Source: Lachnospiraceae bacterium (GTDB lineage Bacteria > Bacillota > Clostridia > Lachnospirales > Lachnospiraceae). Taken from it: a stretch of 51,953 nt of DNA. Below, piece by piece: positions 237-7,613 of this stretch (position 1 is its first letter; every line of letters starts with the position of its first letter). The notes below the pieces were generated by a model. That model did no database searches, was not told the DNA's origin, and worked only from the letters and a program-made list of their open reading frames with translations. A program made the position numbers and the translations under genes. Location: contig JAFVAL010000011.1 in assembly GCA_017480565.1 (NCBI GenBank), forward strand, positions 1 to 51,953, given 5' to 3'.

Positions 237-842
237 ATGGACATGTCTTTTGGGCATATGAAGTGGACGAGGGAACCTGCAGACTATTCGATTCAGCCGG
301 ATCGGATCGAGATCACCACAGAACCTCACACGGATCTGTGGCAGCGAACCTATTATCATTTTAGAAATGATAACGCACCGGTTCTTCAGTTAGAGACAGA
401 GGAAAAATACTTTTCTTTCATCGTGAAAACAGACTTTTCAGAAAGCCACCATCGCTTTGATCAGTGCGGCATTGTCATGTATCTGGATAGCGAAAACTGG
501 CTGAAAGGATCTGTCGAATATGAGAATGAGACCTTCCAGCATCTCGGTTCTGTCGTGACCAACCACGGCTACTCTGACTGGGCAACAACCGAGATACCCG
601 CAGATGTAAAAGTGATGTGGTATCGCCTAAGCCGCCGGGAAGATGACTACTGCATTGAGTGCTCTAAGGACGGAAAAATCTTCAGCCAGATGAGAGTTTG
701 CCACATGTGGGAAGGCGCAGAAAAGATCCGTTTCGGCATCTATGCCTGCAGCCCCGAAGAATCCAGCTTTCAAGCGGTCTTTACGAATCTTAGCATCACC
801 GAATGCGCATGGAAACCACATGACGGCCAACAGCCGGATTAA
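237..842 (+). CDS. DUF1349 concanavalin-A-like lectin-fold protein
   Basis: The 201-residue soluble protein resembles the DUF1349 family (beta-sandwich, concanavalin-like; distantly related to yeast 'regulator of enolase' proteins). Family-like features are the Trp/His-rich start (residues 9-40), the stretch around residue 75 where a His, an Asp and a Gly precede a buried strand, and the repeated aromatic strands up to residue 190. No signal peptide or membrane segment is visible, so it should be cytoplasmic. The start is set by AAGGAGG eight bases upstream and by the promoter at 169-197. The biochemical role of the family is not firmly established; carbohydrate binding is the usual guess. 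It probably heads a three-gene unit with the next two genes. Confidence 0.75.
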   Translation: MDMSFGHMKWTREPADYSIQPDRIEITTEPHTDLWQRTYYHFRNDNAPVLQLETEEKYFSFIVKTDFSESHHRFDQCGIVMYLDSENWLKGSVEYENETFQHLGSVVTNHGYSDWATTEIPADVKVMWYRLSRREDDYCIECSKDGKIFSQMRVCHMWEGAEKIRFGIYACSPEESSFQAVFTNLSITECAWKPHDGQQPD

Positions 843-1838: not shown

Positions 1839-2969
1839 TTAAAAAACAGGTCTTTCTACATGAGCCCTCGGTGTCGTCCCGTAGTAGCGGGAAAATGCCC
1901 GACAAAAGCTGCTGGTATCCGCATAGCCGACTAGCTCACCCACTTCAGTGACAGAGATATCGCCCTGTGTCAGGAGCGCGGAAGCTTTTTCCATTTTGAG
2001 CTTCAACACCAGCTGGGCGTAGCTCAAATCAAAACAACTCTTGACTACACGGCTGATCTGTCTTGTGCTATAATGAAACTCCTGCGCCACGTCCTCGATC
2101 CCAGCCTCAGTGAAATGCTGCTGGATGTAACTCAATATTGCGGAATACTCGTGCTTCCAGTAAAATTCCTCGGTTCGCGAAAGACGCGCGGAGCTCTCAT
2201 ACCGTTTTAGCGTCAGGATGAAAAACTCTGTCATCAGAGTGTTGAGCAGCTGCGGACTGTAGCTTCCGGCTTCCCGGAATTCCCGGTGCATCCTGTCCGT
2301 CAATTCCAGCAGTTCGTTGTCTTCTTCGGTATCAAAGAACAGCCAGGACGCCCCGCCCTCGCCTGAGAGAGATTTGCGGAAGAAGGAGGCCAACAGGCTA
2401 CCCTCCGGCAGCTGGCTCCAGAACACCTGCTCGAAGGTGCTGGCACGGACCATGAAGTAGTGCAGGATCGCGTCGTCCGCGTAACAAGGGCTGGCGTGCA
2501 GAACATTCGGCGCAGTGATCAGCACCGCCCCGCGTGCGAGGGTGACGACCTCGTTTTCAAAGTGGATGGGGCACTCGCCGCAAGGCGCATAATAGATCTC
2601 AAAATAGTCCGAGGTGTGCCATTGCCCCGGCATATAGCGCAGCATCCGCCCGAGAGAGATATCGTGGCTTTGCAAAATATAACGTCGCTCGCTTTGCTTA
2701 CCGTAACCGGTGGCAAGCTGCTCCAGCGCTTGCTTGTCCGTCGGGTTCTTTAATACACGTTCAGCCAGCTTTGACTGGGTTTCATCCCCGATATAGACAG
2801 GGAGGCTCTCCAGACTGGGGCTGTTTGCTCCATATTCTGCGGCCATCCAGGAAATATAGGCTGTCAGCTCCTCTGCGGTCGGGATCTTAGTCTTTATGTC
2901 CGGCCTCTGTTCAAGAAGCAACTTCAGTCCCTTCTCTAACGGTGTCATAGCCAAATCACTTCTGCCCAT
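1839..2969 (-). CDS. AraC-family transcriptional regulator
   Basis: The 376-residue protein ends in a typical AraC/XylS double helix-turn-helix. The first helix pair is around 'GIEDVAQEFHYSTRQISR' and the second around 'SVTEVGELVGYADTSSFCRAF', followed by the Phe-Tyr-Gly-Thr-Thr-Pro signature near the end. The middle third looks like a cupin-type sensor barrel. Its best start is the ATG at 2969, since AAGGAGG ends seven bases before it; a longer TTG start at 2993 would translate that ribosome site. It is divergent from the oxidoreductase-VOC fusion gene 110 bases away, so it probably controls that gene and the GH43-like gene, with a sugar or glycoside as effector (inference). Confidence 0.9.
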   Translation of the reverse strand: MGRSDLAMTPLEKGLKLLLEQRPDIKTKIPTAEELTAYISWMAAEYGANSPSLESLPVYIGDETQSKLAERVLKNPTDKQALEQLATGYGKQSERRYILQSHDISLGRMLRYMPGQWHTSDYFEIYYAPCGECPIHFENEVVTLARGAVLITAPNVLHASPCYADDAILHYFMVRASTFEQVFWSQLPEGSLLASFFRKSLSGEGGASWLFFDTEEDNELLELTDRMHREFREAGSYSPQLLNTLMTEFFILTLKRYESSARLSRTEEFYWKHEYSAILSYIQQHFTEAGIEDVAQEFHYSTRQISRVVKSCFDLSYAQLVLKLKMEKASALLTQGDISVTEVGELVGYADTSSFCRAFSRYYGTTPRAHVERPVF

Positions 2970-3079
2970 AGTTTCCTCCTTGGATGTCTTCAAATGCTAA
3001 TTTGATGGCTTCTATTGTAAATGCTTTTTTCTGCTTTTTCAAGTATGATTAGAGCATCAAAAACCAGGAGGATGTTGTC

Positions 3080-4570
3080 ATGAGCAAATTCGGATGGTGC
3101 TACATCGGCTGCGGCGCGATCGCCAATACCACGGCCAAGGAAATCAACAAGTCGGAGAATAACCGCATTGTAGCGGTCTGGAATCGCGGCTTCGCGAAAG
3201 CGGAGGCCTTTGCAAAGAAATACGGCGGCACAGCATACAAGACCTTTGAGGAGGCGGTAAATGCCCCTGAGGTCGAGGGCGTGTATATCGCGCTTACCGC
3301 CGACTGTCACGCGGAATATATCAAAAAGTGCATCAAACTGCACAAACCCGTCATGTGTGAAAAGCCCTTCACTGTCAGCGCGAAGGAAGCCGAGGAGATC
3401 TTCGCGTTAGCCAGGGAAGAAGGCGTGTATGTCACCGAAGCCATGTGGACCTGGTACAATGCGCCGGCACAGCAGGTGAAAAGCTGGCTGGAGGCTGGGC
3501 GGATTGGCAAGGTCAAGGACGTCAACATCGTCTATGCTTTCCCTTTGATCCAGTTCTCCCACAGCGACAGGCTGACAGACCCGAAGCGTCTCGGCGGCGC
3601 CATCATGGACATCGGTATCTACGGTCTGCGCTACTGCGTCGAGCTCTTCGGCATACCGAACAAGATCGCCTGCGAGGGCCGTGTTGTAGGCGGAACCGAC
3701 CGGGGCGAAATGGTCGACCTCTATTATAACGACTTCACCGCACACTGCCACTTCGCGCTTGACAAAAAGGTGGGCGAGTCTGCCACAATCACCGGATCGG
3801 ACGGTGTGATCACTGTTCCTTTCTTCCATATGGCAAAATCCGCCAAGGTCAAGGGCAAGTTCAATGACGAGATCAAGGTCAATGAGATGCTCTATGACAG
3901 GCAGTTTTCAAATGTTGCTTCCGAAATCCGAGCAGGCCTGATAGAAAGCCAGATGATCAAACCGGAAAATGTGATCAACTGCATGAAGGTCTTAGATGAG
4001 TGCCGTAGGCAGATGGAGCTTGTATTCCCCAGCGAGATGGATGTCGATACCGATGTGAGCTACATCCGCACCATCAGCCACCTGGGCTTTAACTGCAAGG
4101 ACATTGAAAAGTCCATCGCCTTTTATCGGGATATTATGGGCTGCAAGGAGAAGTTTACACTCACCTACGGCGACGTGGCAGCCGACGTGCGCAAAAAGTG
4201 CGACGCCGAGGGTAAGAAATATCCGCTCTACCTCCAGGGCATGAAGCGGATGGAAAACATAAAATGGTCGGTCTATATGAGTTGGACAGACAACACCTTT
4301 ATCGAACTGTTCTATGTGCCCGGCACTCACAATAAGCATGTTCCCAATCCCCAGAAGGACTTAAACTATACCCATTATTCCATCGAGGTCAGCGACCTCA
4401 AGGCCTTCCGGAACCAGATCCTCAAGCGCGGCGGCGCGCAGTACATTGAAACGGAGATCGAGCGCGGCCTTGAGAACACTTACACCATGTGGATGCACGA
4501 TCCCGACGGCAACCGCTTCGAGATCATGGAGTATACGCCCGAGTCCTATCAGGTGACAGGACGAGCATAA
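3080..4570 (+). CDS. Gfo/Idh/MocA oxidoreductase fused to a VOC (glyoxalase-fold) domain
   Basis: The 496-residue protein joins two enzymes. Residues 1-320 are a Gfo/Idh/MocA NAD(P)-dependent dehydrogenase: Rossmann GCGAIA at 10-15, catalytic-type EKP at 94-96, and the D177/Y181 pair typical of the dihydrodiol-dehydrogenase branch. Residues 330-490 are a vicinal-oxygen-chelate domain with all four expected metal ligands, H334, E409, H432 and E481. No stop or linker repeat separates them. AGGAGG lies eight bases upstream. The GH43-like gene follows 17 bases later, so the pair is probably co-transcribed under the AraC regulator. Gfo/Idh/MocA enzymes oxidise sugar hydroxyls, and VOC domains do metal-assisted isomerisation or elimination chemistry on keto compounds. 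A two-step reaction on one sugar is plausible but unproven. Confidence 0.85.
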   Translation: MSKFGWCYIGCGAIANTTAKEINKSENNRIVAVWNRGFAKAEAFAKKYGGTAYKTFEEAVNAPEVEGVYIALTADCHAEYIKKCIKLHKPVMCEKPFTVSAKEAEEIFALAREEGVYVTEAMWTWYNAPAQQVKSWLEAGRIGKVKDVNIVYAFPLIQFSHSDRLTDPKRLGGAIMDIGIYGLRYCVELFGIPNKIACEGRVVGGTDRGEMVDLYYNDFTAHCHFALDKKVGESATITGSDGVITVPFFHMAKSAKVKGKFNDEIKVNEMLYDRQFSNVASEIRAGLIESQMIKPENVINCMKVLDECRRQMELVFPSEMDVDTDVSYIRTISHLGFNCKDIEKSIAFYRDIMGCKEKFTLTYGDVAADVRKKCDAEGKKYPLYLQGMKRMENIKWSVYMSWTDNTFIELFYVPGTHNKHVPNPQKDLNYTHYSIEVSDLKAFRNQILKRGGAQYIETEIERGLENTYTMWMHDPDGNRFEIMEYTPESYQVTGRA

Positions 4571-4587
4571 GAAGGAGGACAGGCATT

Positions 4588-5655
4588 ATGTATACTAGCT
4601 TTCAACCAGGCAAGCGCTGGCTTGACACCAACGGTAACCCCATCCACGCCAACGGCTTTTCGGTCTTTTATGATGAGAAAGAGCAATGTTATTTTTGGCT
4701 TGGCGAGAATAAAGAGAAAACCACCGGAAAAAACACGATCTGGCATTGGGGCGTGAGGCTCTATGCCTCTAAGGATCTGTATAACTGGGAAGACCGCGGG
4801 CTCATCATCCCGCCTACGCCCGACGACCTCCAAAGCCCTCTGCATCCCACCTACTGCATGGATCGCCCTCATTTCCTGTACTGTGAAAAGACCGGAAAAT
4901 ACGTGATGTGGCTTAAAATCATGGCGGGCGAGATCAGCCAGTTTTTCAGTATTCTGGAAGCAGATCAGCTCGAAGGCCCTTATACCTTCGTTCACAAAGT
5001 GTATAAGCCATTAAAAATGGACTCCGGAGACTTCACTCTGCATGCAGACGCGGAAACGGGCAAGGCTTATGTTTTCTTTGAACGGCCACATTTCCAGCTC
5101 ATCTGCGCGACGCTGACGGATGATTACACCGGCGTGACCGGAGAGTATAGTGTACACTATGATGGACTGATTCCACCGCTGACCCGAGAAGCTCCGACCT
5201 TCTTCGAACGTAACGGGAAAAAATATCTTTTTACCTCCGGAACCACCGGCTATTTCCCGAATCCCTCGAAGGTCTGTGTCTTTGACGACTATCACGGTGA
5301 GTATGTCGATCTGGGAGATCCCTGCATCGGCGACAAGAGCGGTACGACTTTCAATTCGCAAATCACCAGTGTGCTGAAGGTGCCGGGGAAGGATCTTTAT
5401 ATCGCCTGCGCTGACCGCTGGAATCCACAGTGGTGGGTACCGATGATATCCAAACAGATCATCAAAGGGATGGAACGACATTTTGCAGGCTATACGCCGG
5501 ACACCACTCCGAAGGAGGTCCATCCGCTCCCTGGTGTGGAGACACCTCACAAGGAAAATACCAGCATCGCCCGTTATGTGTGGCTGCCGATCGACTGGCA
5601 CGGCGACAAGCCTACCATTCACTGGCACGAGGAATGGCGCTGGGAGGAGTACTGA
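4588..5655 (+). CDS. GH43-like five-bladed beta-propeller glycosidase
   Basis: The 355-residue soluble protein has the layout of GH43-type propeller enzymes, close in style to the exo-galactanase-like branch. An early 'YFWLGENKE' blade is followed by 'MDRPHFLYCEKTGKYVMW', the 'R-P-h-hY-N/E-K-TGKYVMW' hallmark. A 'DGDFT/SGDFTLHAD' blade carries candidate acidic residues, and a 'REAPTFFERNGKKYLFTSG' blade has the Glu expected for the general acid. No signal peptide is seen, so it acts in the cytoplasm. The ATG at 4588 is chosen because GAAGGAGG precedes it; a longer frame would overlap the previous gene by 80 bases. Substrate is not predictable from sequence alone. Confidence 0.78.
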   Translation: MYTSFQPGKRWLDTNGNPIHANGFSVFYDEKEQCYFWLGENKEKTTGKNTIWHWGVRLYASKDLYNWEDRGLIIPPTPDDLQSPLHPTYCMDRPHFLYCEKTGKYVMWLKIMAGEISQFFSILEADQLEGPYTFVHKVYKPLKMDSGDFTLHADAETGKAYVFFERPHFQLICATLTDDYTGVTGEYSVHYDGLIPPLTREAPTFFERNGKKYLFTSGTTGYFPNPSKVCVFDDYHGEYVDLGDPCIGDKSGTTFNSQITSVLKVPGKDLYIACADRWNPQWWVPMISKQIIKGMERHFAGYTPDTTPKEVHPLPGVETPHKENTSIARYVWLPIDWHGDKPTIHWHEEWRWEEY

Positions 5656-5689: not shown

Positions 5690-5735
5690 ATATCCCTTAA
5701 GAAAAAACAATTCAAAGTTCTTTCTTAAGGGATAT
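5690..5735. terminator. Bidirectional intrinsic terminator
   Basis: A 15-bp perfect stem, from ATATCCCTTAAGAAA at 5690-5704 to its complement at 5721-5735, has a 16-base loop. T-rich tails follow on both strands (ATTATTTCTT on plus, TCTTTTTG on minus). It lies between the convergent GH43-like and flavodiiron genes. Confidence 0.85.
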
Positions 5736-5792: not shown

Positions 5793-7595
5793 TCACGCCA
5801 TCTTTCTAAAATCACTCGCAGGATGCTTGCACAGCGGACAAATAAAGTCCTCCGGCAGCACCTCGCCCTCATAGATATATCCACAGATCTCGCAGACCCA
5901 GCCCTTCACCTGCTCCTGCGGTCTCGGCTTCACATTCTTCTGATAGAACGTATACGTCATCGTCTCAATATCATTTAACACCACCGACTCCGTGATATCA
6001 CACAAGAACATCCAGTGCGAACCCATATCCACGACATCAAACACCTTCAGTGAGATATATCCATTTGCATACTTATTCAGGTAAGGCACCCCGTTGGAAG
6101 CCACTTCATAGCGCGTAAAGTCTGCAAACTTATCCACCATTCTTCCCGACTGGAAGCCGAAATGCTGGAAGATCTTAAACGGGCACTCTTCGTTGAGGGT
6201 GCAGACGTTCATGACGCCAGTCTTTCTGATCACATCCGCGGAATAATTTGCCTTATTGATATTGACAGCCACGCGGTCAGGATTGCTCGCCACCTGTGAA
6301 ACTGTATTGACGATCTGTCCATTAAACTTCTTCCCGTCATTGCAGGTCACAACATACAAACCGTAGCCGATCTTAAAGAGCGCCTTCGGGTCGATCTTCT
6401 TCTCATCCGACACTTCCACCGCATTGTAATCCGCTGCCAGCTCATCCGCCAGCGCCAGAATCTTCGCAGTGCTCTCCTTGTTAAGGGCAGAGAGGATCGT
6501 CACATTATTTTCCGCAAAGGTAATGTTCTTGCTCTTCTCAAACTTCGCCTTCATGACCTTCATCGCGGTCGGCGCCCAAGAGCCATTTTCGATAAATGCA
6601 ATCGTTCTCTTCTGGTAATTGCGTTCCACGAGACTGTCGATGAACTCACGCATGTAAGGGAAGATCTCCGCGTTAAATGTCGTCGTTGCCAGCACGAGCT
6701 TATCGTACCGGAACGCATCCTCCACGCACTCCGCCATGTCGCTTCTCGCAAGATCATTTAACGCAACGGCAGGCACCCCACGCTTTTTCAGCTCTTCTGC
6801 CAACAGCTCCGCAGCCGCCTTCGTATGACCGTAAACGGAGGTGTAGCAGATGCAGACACCATCAGATTCCGGCAGATAGCTGGACCACGTGTCATACAGA
6901 CCAATATAATAGCCAAGATTCTCTGTCAGCATCGGGCCGTGCAGCGGCAGGATCTTCTGGATGTCAAGCGTTGCCGCCTTTTTCAGGACGTTTTGCACCT
7001 GCTGGCCATATTTGCCCACGATACCGAAATAATATCTTCTCGCCTCGCATGCCCAGTCATCATCACCGGTATCGAGCGCACCAAACTTACCAAAGCCATC
7101 CGCGGAGAACAGCACCTTGTCGTAGGCATCATACGTCATCATAACTTCCGGCCAATGCATCATCGGTGCGAACACAAAGGTCAGCTCACGCTTGCCAAGG
7201 TTTAGCGTCTCGCCATTCTTTACTTCTAACTTCTTCTCGTTCTTTAAGTTCGGGAAGAACTGACCGATCATTGTGAAAATCTTTGCGTTGCCGACCACGG
7301 TCGTCTCCGGATAGATCTCCAAAAACGCCTGAATCGACGCAGAGTGATCCGGCTCCATGTGCTGGATGATCAGATATTCCGGCTTCTCGCCCTGCAGGGC
7401 AACCTTTAAGTTCACCAGCCATTCCTTGGTCTTTCTCTGATCGATCGTATCCATGATCGCAGTCTTCTCATCATGGATCACATAAGAATTGTAGGCCATG
7501 CCCTCCGGCACAACATAATGTCCCTCAAAAAGATCGATATCGTAATCATTTGCACCGATATAGACGATAGAATCCGTAATCTGTTTATTCATCAT
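5793..7595 (-). CDS. Multidomain flavodiiron protein (O2/NO reductase) with flavin reductase and rubredoxin domains
   Basis: The 600-residue protein has four modules in order. A metallo-beta-lactamase-fold diiron domain has ligands H79, E81, D83, H147, D166 and H219; the first three numbers equal those of classic Desulfovibrio rubredoxin:oxygen oxidoreductase, which supports the chosen start. A flavodoxin domain spans about 245-395 ('YTSVYGHT' FMN loop). A flavin-reductase-like FMN domain spans about 400-545. A C-terminal rubredoxin has two CxxC pairs ('CEICGYIY' and 'CPLCKHP'). Such proteins reduce O2 to water or NO to N2O in anaerobes. GGAG lies seven bases before the ATG at 7595, and a TTG four codons upstream overlaps that site. 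The P-loop ATPase gene ends 18 bases upstream. Confidence 0.93.
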   Translation of the reverse strand: MMNKQITDSIVYIGANDYDIDLFEGHYVVPEGMAYNSYVIHDEKTAIMDTIDQRKTKEWLVNLKVALQGEKPEYLIIQHMEPDHSASIQAFLEIYPETTVVGNAKIFTMIGQFFPNLKNEKKLEVKNGETLNLGKRELTFVFAPMMHWPEVMMTYDAYDKVLFSADGFGKFGALDTGDDDWACEARRYYFGIVGKYGQQVQNVLKKAATLDIQKILPLHGPMLTENLGYYIGLYDTWSSYLPESDGVCICYTSVYGHTKAAAELLAEELKKRGVPAVALNDLARSDMAECVEDAFRYDKLVLATTTFNAEIFPYMREFIDSLVERNYQKRTIAFIENGSWAPTAMKVMKAKFEKSKNITFAENNVTILSALNKESTAKILALADELAADYNAVEVSDEKKIDPKALFKIGYGLYVVTCNDGKKFNGQIVNTVSQVASNPDRVAVNINKANYSADVIRKTGVMNVCTLNEECPFKIFQHFGFQSGRMVDKFADFTRYEVASNGVPYLNKYANGYISLKVFDVVDMGSHWMFLCDITESVVLNDIETMTYTFYQKNVKPRPQEQVKGWVCEICGYIYEGEVLPEDFICPLCKHPASDFRKMA

Positions 7596-7613
7596 GCTAA
7601 TCTCCAATCTACT

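Follow-up and report, generated by a model that had tools for sequence, protein, structure and literature searches.

The window described here is a stretch of 51,953 nucleotides (positions 1 to 51,953 of contig JAFVAL010000011.1, assembly GCA_017480565.1, from a Lachnospiraceae bacterium). It contains a gene in which a dehydrogenase of the Gfo/Idh/MocA family (Gfo below) runs on, within the same frame, into a domain of the VOC fold family. A gene for a protein resembling glycoside hydrolases (GH) of family 43 follows it, and an AraC-family regulator is encoded on the opposite strand (Table 1). An earlier note on this DNA had recognized, in one chain, an NAD-dependent sugar-oxidizing domain and a VOC metal site (H334, E409, H432, E481), both intact, with the GH43-like gene 17 bases downstream and the AraC gene divergent. 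Pfam matches and residues agree with the first of these observations, and the coordinates with the second. The domain architecture, the intact motifs, the recurrent pairing of Gfo and VOC, and the glycoside-hydrolase neighbors are established by the results that follow.

Table 1. Features at the fusion locus (positions in the window)
Feature	Coordinates	Strand	Basis
Gfo/Idh/MocA-VOC fusion gene	3080..4570	+	ATG start, 496 aa, single open frame; Pfam matches to both families
Gfo/Idh/MocA dehydrogenase part, residues 1-319	3080..4036	+	PF01408, PF22725; ends where standalone relatives end
VOC domain, residues 326-496	4055..4567	+	PF00903
GH43-like protein, 355 aa	4588..5655	+	PF04616; aligned solved GH43 relatives
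AraC-family regulator	1839..2969	-	PF12833, PF00165, PF02311; divergent from fusion gene
Divergent intergenic region, 110 bases (AraC from ATG 2969)	2970..3079	.	Sequence
19-pair hairpin 3' of GH43-like gene	5690..5735	.	Terminator scan (listed there for - strand)

Architecture and integrity of the fusion

The fusion frame has no internal stop. Membership of its first part in the Gfo/Idh/MocA family is given by matches to GFO_IDH_MocA (residues 8-119, E 4e-25, 89.3 bits against a cut-off of 24) and GFO_IDH_MocA_C3 (131-244, E 5.9e-11, 42.9 bits against 27), and the last part matches Glyoxalase (residues 332-482, E 3.7e-9, 37.5 bits against 20.6). Standalone relatives of the Gfo part stop near residue 319 (fusion numbering), so the chain consists of a whole dehydrogenase, a linker of about 10 residues and a whole VOC domain. 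GC contents at the three codon positions are alike in the VOC part (0.48/0.345/0.749) and the Gfo part (0.519/0.381/0.72), and thus both look coding. The open frame, the like codon composition, and the existence of further fusions in the same and in another genome (see below) rule out an artefact of frameshifting or assembly.

In Gfo/Idh/MocA enzymes, catalytic roles fall to the Lys of an EKP motif and to an Asp/Tyr motif. The corresponding residues E94-K95-P96, D177, and Y181 are present in the fusion and align with those of 2o48, a dimeric dihydrodiol dehydrogenase that is the closest solved relative of the Gfo part. The glyoxalase-I-type metal site of VOC proteins is made of four ligands, H/Q-E-H-E, and all four occur in the window VOC at conserved alignment columns: H334 (4079-4081), E409 (4304-4306), H432 (4373-4375), and E481 (4520-4522). 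By motif, both active sites of the fusion look intact. Degeneration of the metal site in close homologs, which the earlier note had considered a threat to its reading, is not seen among single-domain homologs, given that H-E-H-E is kept in 36 of 36 single VOC domains scored (35 standalone and that of the window; the ligand table omits L068, L086, and VOC rows below 60 bits other than controls, and L167 is unscored).

More specific models do not name a substrate, because every NCBIfam equivalog considered falls below its cut-off. For inositol, xylose, and levoglucosan dehydrogenases the shortfall is large (TIGR04380, 73.5 bits against 355; NF041392, 57.3 against 350; NF052479, 40.6 against 650), and the lactoylglutathione lyase (glyoxalase I) model TIGR00068 is matched over its length with 35.9 of the 120 bits required. 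The best Protein Data Bank (PDB) relatives of the VOC profile are lactoylglutathione lyases, and methylmalonyl-CoA epimerase is also matched.

Recurrence of the Gfo-VOC partnership

Two more fusions were found. Scanning the genome that contains the window (2.78 Mb, 98.8% complete) for VOCs led to the first, a Gfo-VOC-VOC protein of 711 aa (L008, 932-3067); four Gfo domains score above cut-off there, and two of them are VOC-fused. The other, also Gfo-VOC-VOC (701 aa; L153, 3467-5572, genome G1008), comes from another genus of the same family and is 60% identical to the first in the Gfo part and 58% in the second VOC part. The fusion profile searches covered overlapping samples of 392 genomes (order), 19 (family of G107), 398 (phylum), and 397 (own family). 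In none of 72,556 plasmid records does any one place cover 80% of the fusion, and no description of a Gfo-VOC fusion was recognized in the literature at the level of titles and the beginnings of abstracts.

The tandem fusions have lost some metal ligands, in a regular way. In VOC1/VOC2 order the ligand positions read H-E-K-Q/Q-E-H-E in the 711-aa protein and H-E-K-V/Q-V-H-E in the 701-aa protein, and in both the first pair of VOC1 and the last pair of VOC2 survive. In homodimeric glyoxalase I, each site combines the first two ligands of one subunit with the last two of its partner. In an interface arrangement of this kind, one H-E-H-E set per tandem fusion is still complete and the other is gone, and the losses fit a single composite site that can remain; a VOC-VOC dimer would then be needed by the window's single VOC. 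A published account places the sites of homodimeric glyoxalase I at the subunit interface, and describes the maize enzyme as a tandem with one functional Ni site and one cryptic site (PMC5412262). Caution is called for, in that the Clostridium acetobutylicum enzyme has its sites inside single subunits. The window VOC resembles glyoxalase I in fold family and in ligand set, and the plant tandem with one working site resembles Gfo-VOC-VOC. It differs in being fused to a dehydrogenase and in missing the TIGR00068 cut-off. Glyoxalase I itself acts on glutathione adducts.

Unfused VOC tandems vary. By eye, L165 and L166 keep both sites, and L068 (7390-8271 (+), 293 aa, just after a recombinase) has no complete site, which counts against universal ligand conservation. 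With its decayed ligands, L068 is similar to the tandem part of the fusions and looks like a remnant.

Trees help to place these events. The window Gfo falls among standalone genes (97/95), the Gfo part of the second fusion groups with VOC-linked genes (L062, L065, L077, L074), and the window VOC groups with the VOCs of L062 and L065 (96/96); the row L009_alone is a wrong-frame open reading frame (ORF) and was disregarded. These groupings indicate that the two kinds of fusion joined different dehydrogenases to related VOCs, and most simply they would have arisen in separate events. It should be noted that the VOC-linked Gfos were gathered through their VOCs, and their clustering is therefore partly a matter of ascertainment.

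Beyond the fusions, Gfo genes lie near unfused members of the same VOC subfamily more often than near other VOCs. Within flanks of about 6 kb per side (where the contig allows), a Gfo gene, always on the strand of the VOC, was found at 13 of the 39 loci of the subfamily, compared with 1 of the 31 controls (Fisher p 0.002). By set, the counts are 8/23 in the first (one duplicate dropped), 5/13 in the second, and 0/3 in the third. Collapsing two orthologous sets (L062/L065/L151 and L066/L067) leaves 10/36 (p 0.008); because the rows are related, the p-values are merely indicative, and the choice of sets to collapse is ours. The controls are VOCs of the same genomes that do not belong to the subfamily, hand-picked from the PF00903 list with at most four per genome, and in 12 of the 31 the subfamily profile recovered no VOC ORF. 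A contig end leaves <3 kb on one side of 10/38 targets and 4/19 controls (those that could be measured). L086 was dropped because its 11.3 kb are identical (100%) to L074; the weaker VOCs at L073 and L075, both without a Gfo neighbor, were left out; and L164 was counted even though the local ORF search missed its partial VOC. L074 had first been picked for having Gfo and VOC matches on one contig, and the VOC search found it independently. Rebuilding the Gfo profile without one wrong-frame seed (L009; 19 seeds originally) left the counts unchanged.

The pairs are often tight, with gaps of <125 bases in 8 of the 13 (L062, 3; L065, 15; L067, 5; L077, 48; L088, 8; L151, 122; L152, 23; L155, 31). 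Many sit among glycoside hydrolases, namely GH1/GH95 at L062 and L065, GH1 at L151 (by similarity), GH3 at L074, GH10 at L088, GH2 at L155, and, at L152, a rhamnosidase (GH78) with rhamnose isomerase. A GH1-Gfo-VOC set recurs in two families (L062, L065, L151). Among the 13 clusters, the Pfam scan took in no neighbor of L066 or L157 and a few neighbors each of L067, L077, L083, and L163.

Some clusters have further content. The second fusion (L008, G000:C57, 932-11996) is accompanied by a serine-dehydratase-alpha-like gene, an ApbA-like reductase, an ATC_hydrolase-like gene, a LIV-type ABC transporter, and a tartronate semialdehyde reductase (NF008592 above cut-off). L074 (698-9289 (-)) is one Gfo cluster with split transketolase halves, two SDR genes, the GH3, and two different VOC genes, and its GarR is 66% identical to the GarR of L008. 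A second VOC type (Glyoxalase_4) lies near Gfo genes at L153 (5590-6060), L074 (6230-6700), L124 (3590-4090), and L128 (7971-8429), and, assigned by similarity only, at L163 (7319-7837).

Proposed function and alternatives

What the data establish is that Gfo and VOC are partners and that the sites are intact; they do not fix the reaction, and the chemistry, substrate, order of steps, and dimer site given here are what we infer. We consider the chances about even that the fusion is a bifunctional enzyme of intracellular glycoside or modified-sugar breakdown, in which oxidation by the Gfo part is followed by metal-assisted elimination or isomerization in the VOC part. VOC metals chelate a vicinal C=O/C-OH pair, such as that of a 3-keto sugar, and in glyoxalase-type chemistry an alpha proton is removed to give an enediolate. 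In the fusion, the Gfo part would oxidize a sugar hydroxyl with NAD, yielding a keto sugar with the vicinal pair. The VOC part would bind a divalent metal via its four ligands, probably across a VOC dimer interface; the metal would chelate the pair, and a glutamate base would take the alpha C-H to leave a metal-bound enediolate. Collapse of this intermediate could expel the C1 substituent (beta-elimination) or, by reprotonation, bring about isomerization or epimerization. The GH43-like enzyme may supply or trim the substrate, with the AraC regulator sensing it.

Known systems provide partial parallels. In C-glycoside deglycosylation by DgpA-DgpBC/DfgE-DfgAB and in beta-elimination of O-glycosides by AtOGE, as would be the case here, the sugar is oxidized first and a divalent-metal enzyme then releases the aglycone. 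DgpA is itself of the Gfo/Idh/MocA family (PMC11239390), and the window Gfo resembles it weakly (7xr9, E 2.8e-9, residues 1-183). The C-glycoside partners and the known enzymes that beta-eliminate 3-keto glycosides are TIM barrels dependent on metal (PMC10628242), separate from the dehydrogenase, whereas here the role of metal enzyme would fall to a VOC domain within the dehydrogenase chain. The genes for DgpA and DgpBC are not necessarily adjacent (PMC11170127); a TIM-barrel eliminase of this type beside the dehydrogenase was looked for, and AP_endonuc_2 is absent from the window's contig, with six on other contigs of the genome. The levoglucosan pathway (oxidation, elimination, hydration, and reduction) likewise has a dehydrogenase followed by elimination (PMC7676230), but the levoglucosan dehydrogenase model is far from reached. 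Within sugar and glycoside catabolism initiated by a Gfo enzyme, the VOC partner is what is new. We know of no VOC enzyme in the levoglucosan pathway.

The GH43-like neighbor bears on the substrate. PF04616 matches it at residues 49-224 (E 1.5e-14, 54.5 bits against a cut-off of 32.2), and most of its length can be aligned to solved GH43 structures, the best being 6eug (E 3.6e-39), 6euf (E 1.8e-31, residues 3-280), 7bys, 3vsf, and 5flw. By record name, 7bys is a galactan 1,3-beta-galactosidase and 5flw an exo-beta-1,3-galactanase; 6eug and 6euf, which are named Beta-glucanase, have galactanase activity. The exo-beta-1,3-galactanase group of GH43 uses Glu, Glu, and Gln in catalysis. The window protein has D92, E201, and Q258 at these positions, that is, it keeps the last two and has Asp92 in place of the aligned Glu of 'ERP'. 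This neighbor suggests a substrate of beta-1,3-galactoside type. No signal peptide was recognized by eye, and the protein is therefore probably intracellular.

The redox-glycoside reading of the earlier note hence survives in part. The recurrent partnership and the glycoside-hydrolase setting favor it, and nothing found is specific to C-glycosides; that specificity finds no support, considering that the known partners are TIM barrels, that AP_endonuc_2 has no match on the window's contig, and that the GH43-like neighbor suggests another type of substrate.

Several points weigh against the bifunctional enzyme proposed. Subfamily VOCs without a Gfo nearby make up 26 of the 39, and the single-VOC fusion is confined to the window's genome among those sampled. 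The earlier note had feared that most homologs would be separate genes lacking the VOC partner, and here the outcome is divided: the 11 closest relatives found for the window Gfo are all standalone in a contig scan by exact peptide matches, and their flanks contain no VOC recognized by the subfamily profile, but two further fusions exist and the fusion is genuine. In the reverse test with the other Gfo type, 2 of the 20 next-best relatives have a VOC in the flank, both weak and of the different Glyoxalase_4 type. Glycoside hydrolases in at least 7 of the 13 Gfo-VOC clusters is a lower bound that comes without a control frequency, and in four clusters (L067, L083, L155, L163) there is an AP_endonuc_2 TIM barrel that could be the real eliminase. 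H-E-H-E also occurs in 4 of 19 control VOC rows, most others being gapped in that alignment.

Among the alternatives, a redox-neutral isomerase or epimerase fares best, and is in our view unlikely. The Gfo part would oxidize, the VOC part would invert or shift the neighboring center via the enediolate, and the same NADH would re-reduce the ketone; nothing would be cleaved, and the GH43-like enzyme would only free the monosaccharide. VOC enzymes do perform alpha-proton chemistry, and methylmalonyl-CoA epimerase is among the PDB matches noted above. Some Gfo enzymes recycle their own cofactor, and two of them, glucose-fructose oxidoreductase and aldose-aldose oxidoreductase, are among the matches of the window Gfo; a closed redox cycle would also suit a fusion. 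However, the genes around the second fusion and around some unfused pairs include transporters, other dehydrogenases, and GarR, and these suggest a catabolic route that is open.

The VOC could instead be a damage-control module, similar to glyoxalase, that clears reactive dicarbonyls or breakdown products of the keto sugar made by the dehydrogenase. H-E-H-E is the glyoxalase I ligand set, lactoylglutathione lyases are the best PDB relatives of the VOC profile, and TIGR00068 is matched along its length. The score on that model is nevertheless well short of its cut-off, and a general protective role sits poorly with the contrast in Gfo neighbors between subfamily and other VOCs; we regard it as quite unlikely.

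It is very unlikely, we think, that the VOC is a noncatalytic binding or dimerization module, although its fusion partner belongs to a family that includes dimers (2o48 is a dimeric enzyme by name), 3 or 4 of 8 ligand positions deviate from H-E-H-E in the tandem fusions, and L068 lacks a complete site. Both tandem fusions still hold one complete composite set, and the scored single domains keep all four ligands. Finally, a trans-dihydrodiol dehydrogenase whose aromatic product is passed to the VOC, as an extradiol-dioxygenase-like pair, is suggested by the closest solved relative of the Gfo part but is highly improbable, given the H-E-H-E conserved throughout the single domains (against an extradiol H-H-E), the glycoside hydrolases in the setting, and the record titles of 5 of the 11 Gfo relatives, which name samples (chicken, faeces, reticulum, or rumen) where oxygen is probably scarce.

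More broadly, and with considerable doubt, we suggest that Gfo dehydrogenases may have recruited VOC several times (as adjacent genes, a single fusion, and tandem fusions with a composite site) as a route to metal-assisted alpha-proton removal from keto sugars that does not use a TIM barrel, giving one-chain oxidizing eliminases or epimerases that would pass a labile keto sugar between sites. If so, sugar catabolism would be a further task of a small metal-binding fold familiar mainly from detoxification and resistance to antibiotics, and Gfo and VOC genes that are linked would offer a signature by which to search for uncharacterized glycoside routes. With the two layouts of fusion, the link between oxidation and enolization can be tested in one purified protein.

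Signals and other genes near the fusion

The GH43-like ORF begins with ATG at 4588, 17 bases past the fusion stop (4570), and has a strong ribosome-binding site (AAGGAGG) upstream. For the AraC gene, the ATG at 2969, which also has AAGGAGG upstream as a Shine-Dalgarno sequence, is a likelier start than the listed TTG at 2993. In the divergent intergenic region, matches to promoter-like consensus sequences occur on the - strand only. The hairpin beyond the GH43-like gene is a possible end of the transcription unit.

Two other genes in the window deserve a brief mention. At 5793-7607 (-) is a flavodiiron-type protein with flavin reductase and rubredoxin-like domains. At 237-842 (+) is a DUF1349 protein (PF07081, E 1.2e-66); another DUF1349 gene (L064, 10839-11429) overlaps with the 5' end of a VOC gene of the subfamily, and a functional tie between DUF1349 and this VOC subfamily is possible.

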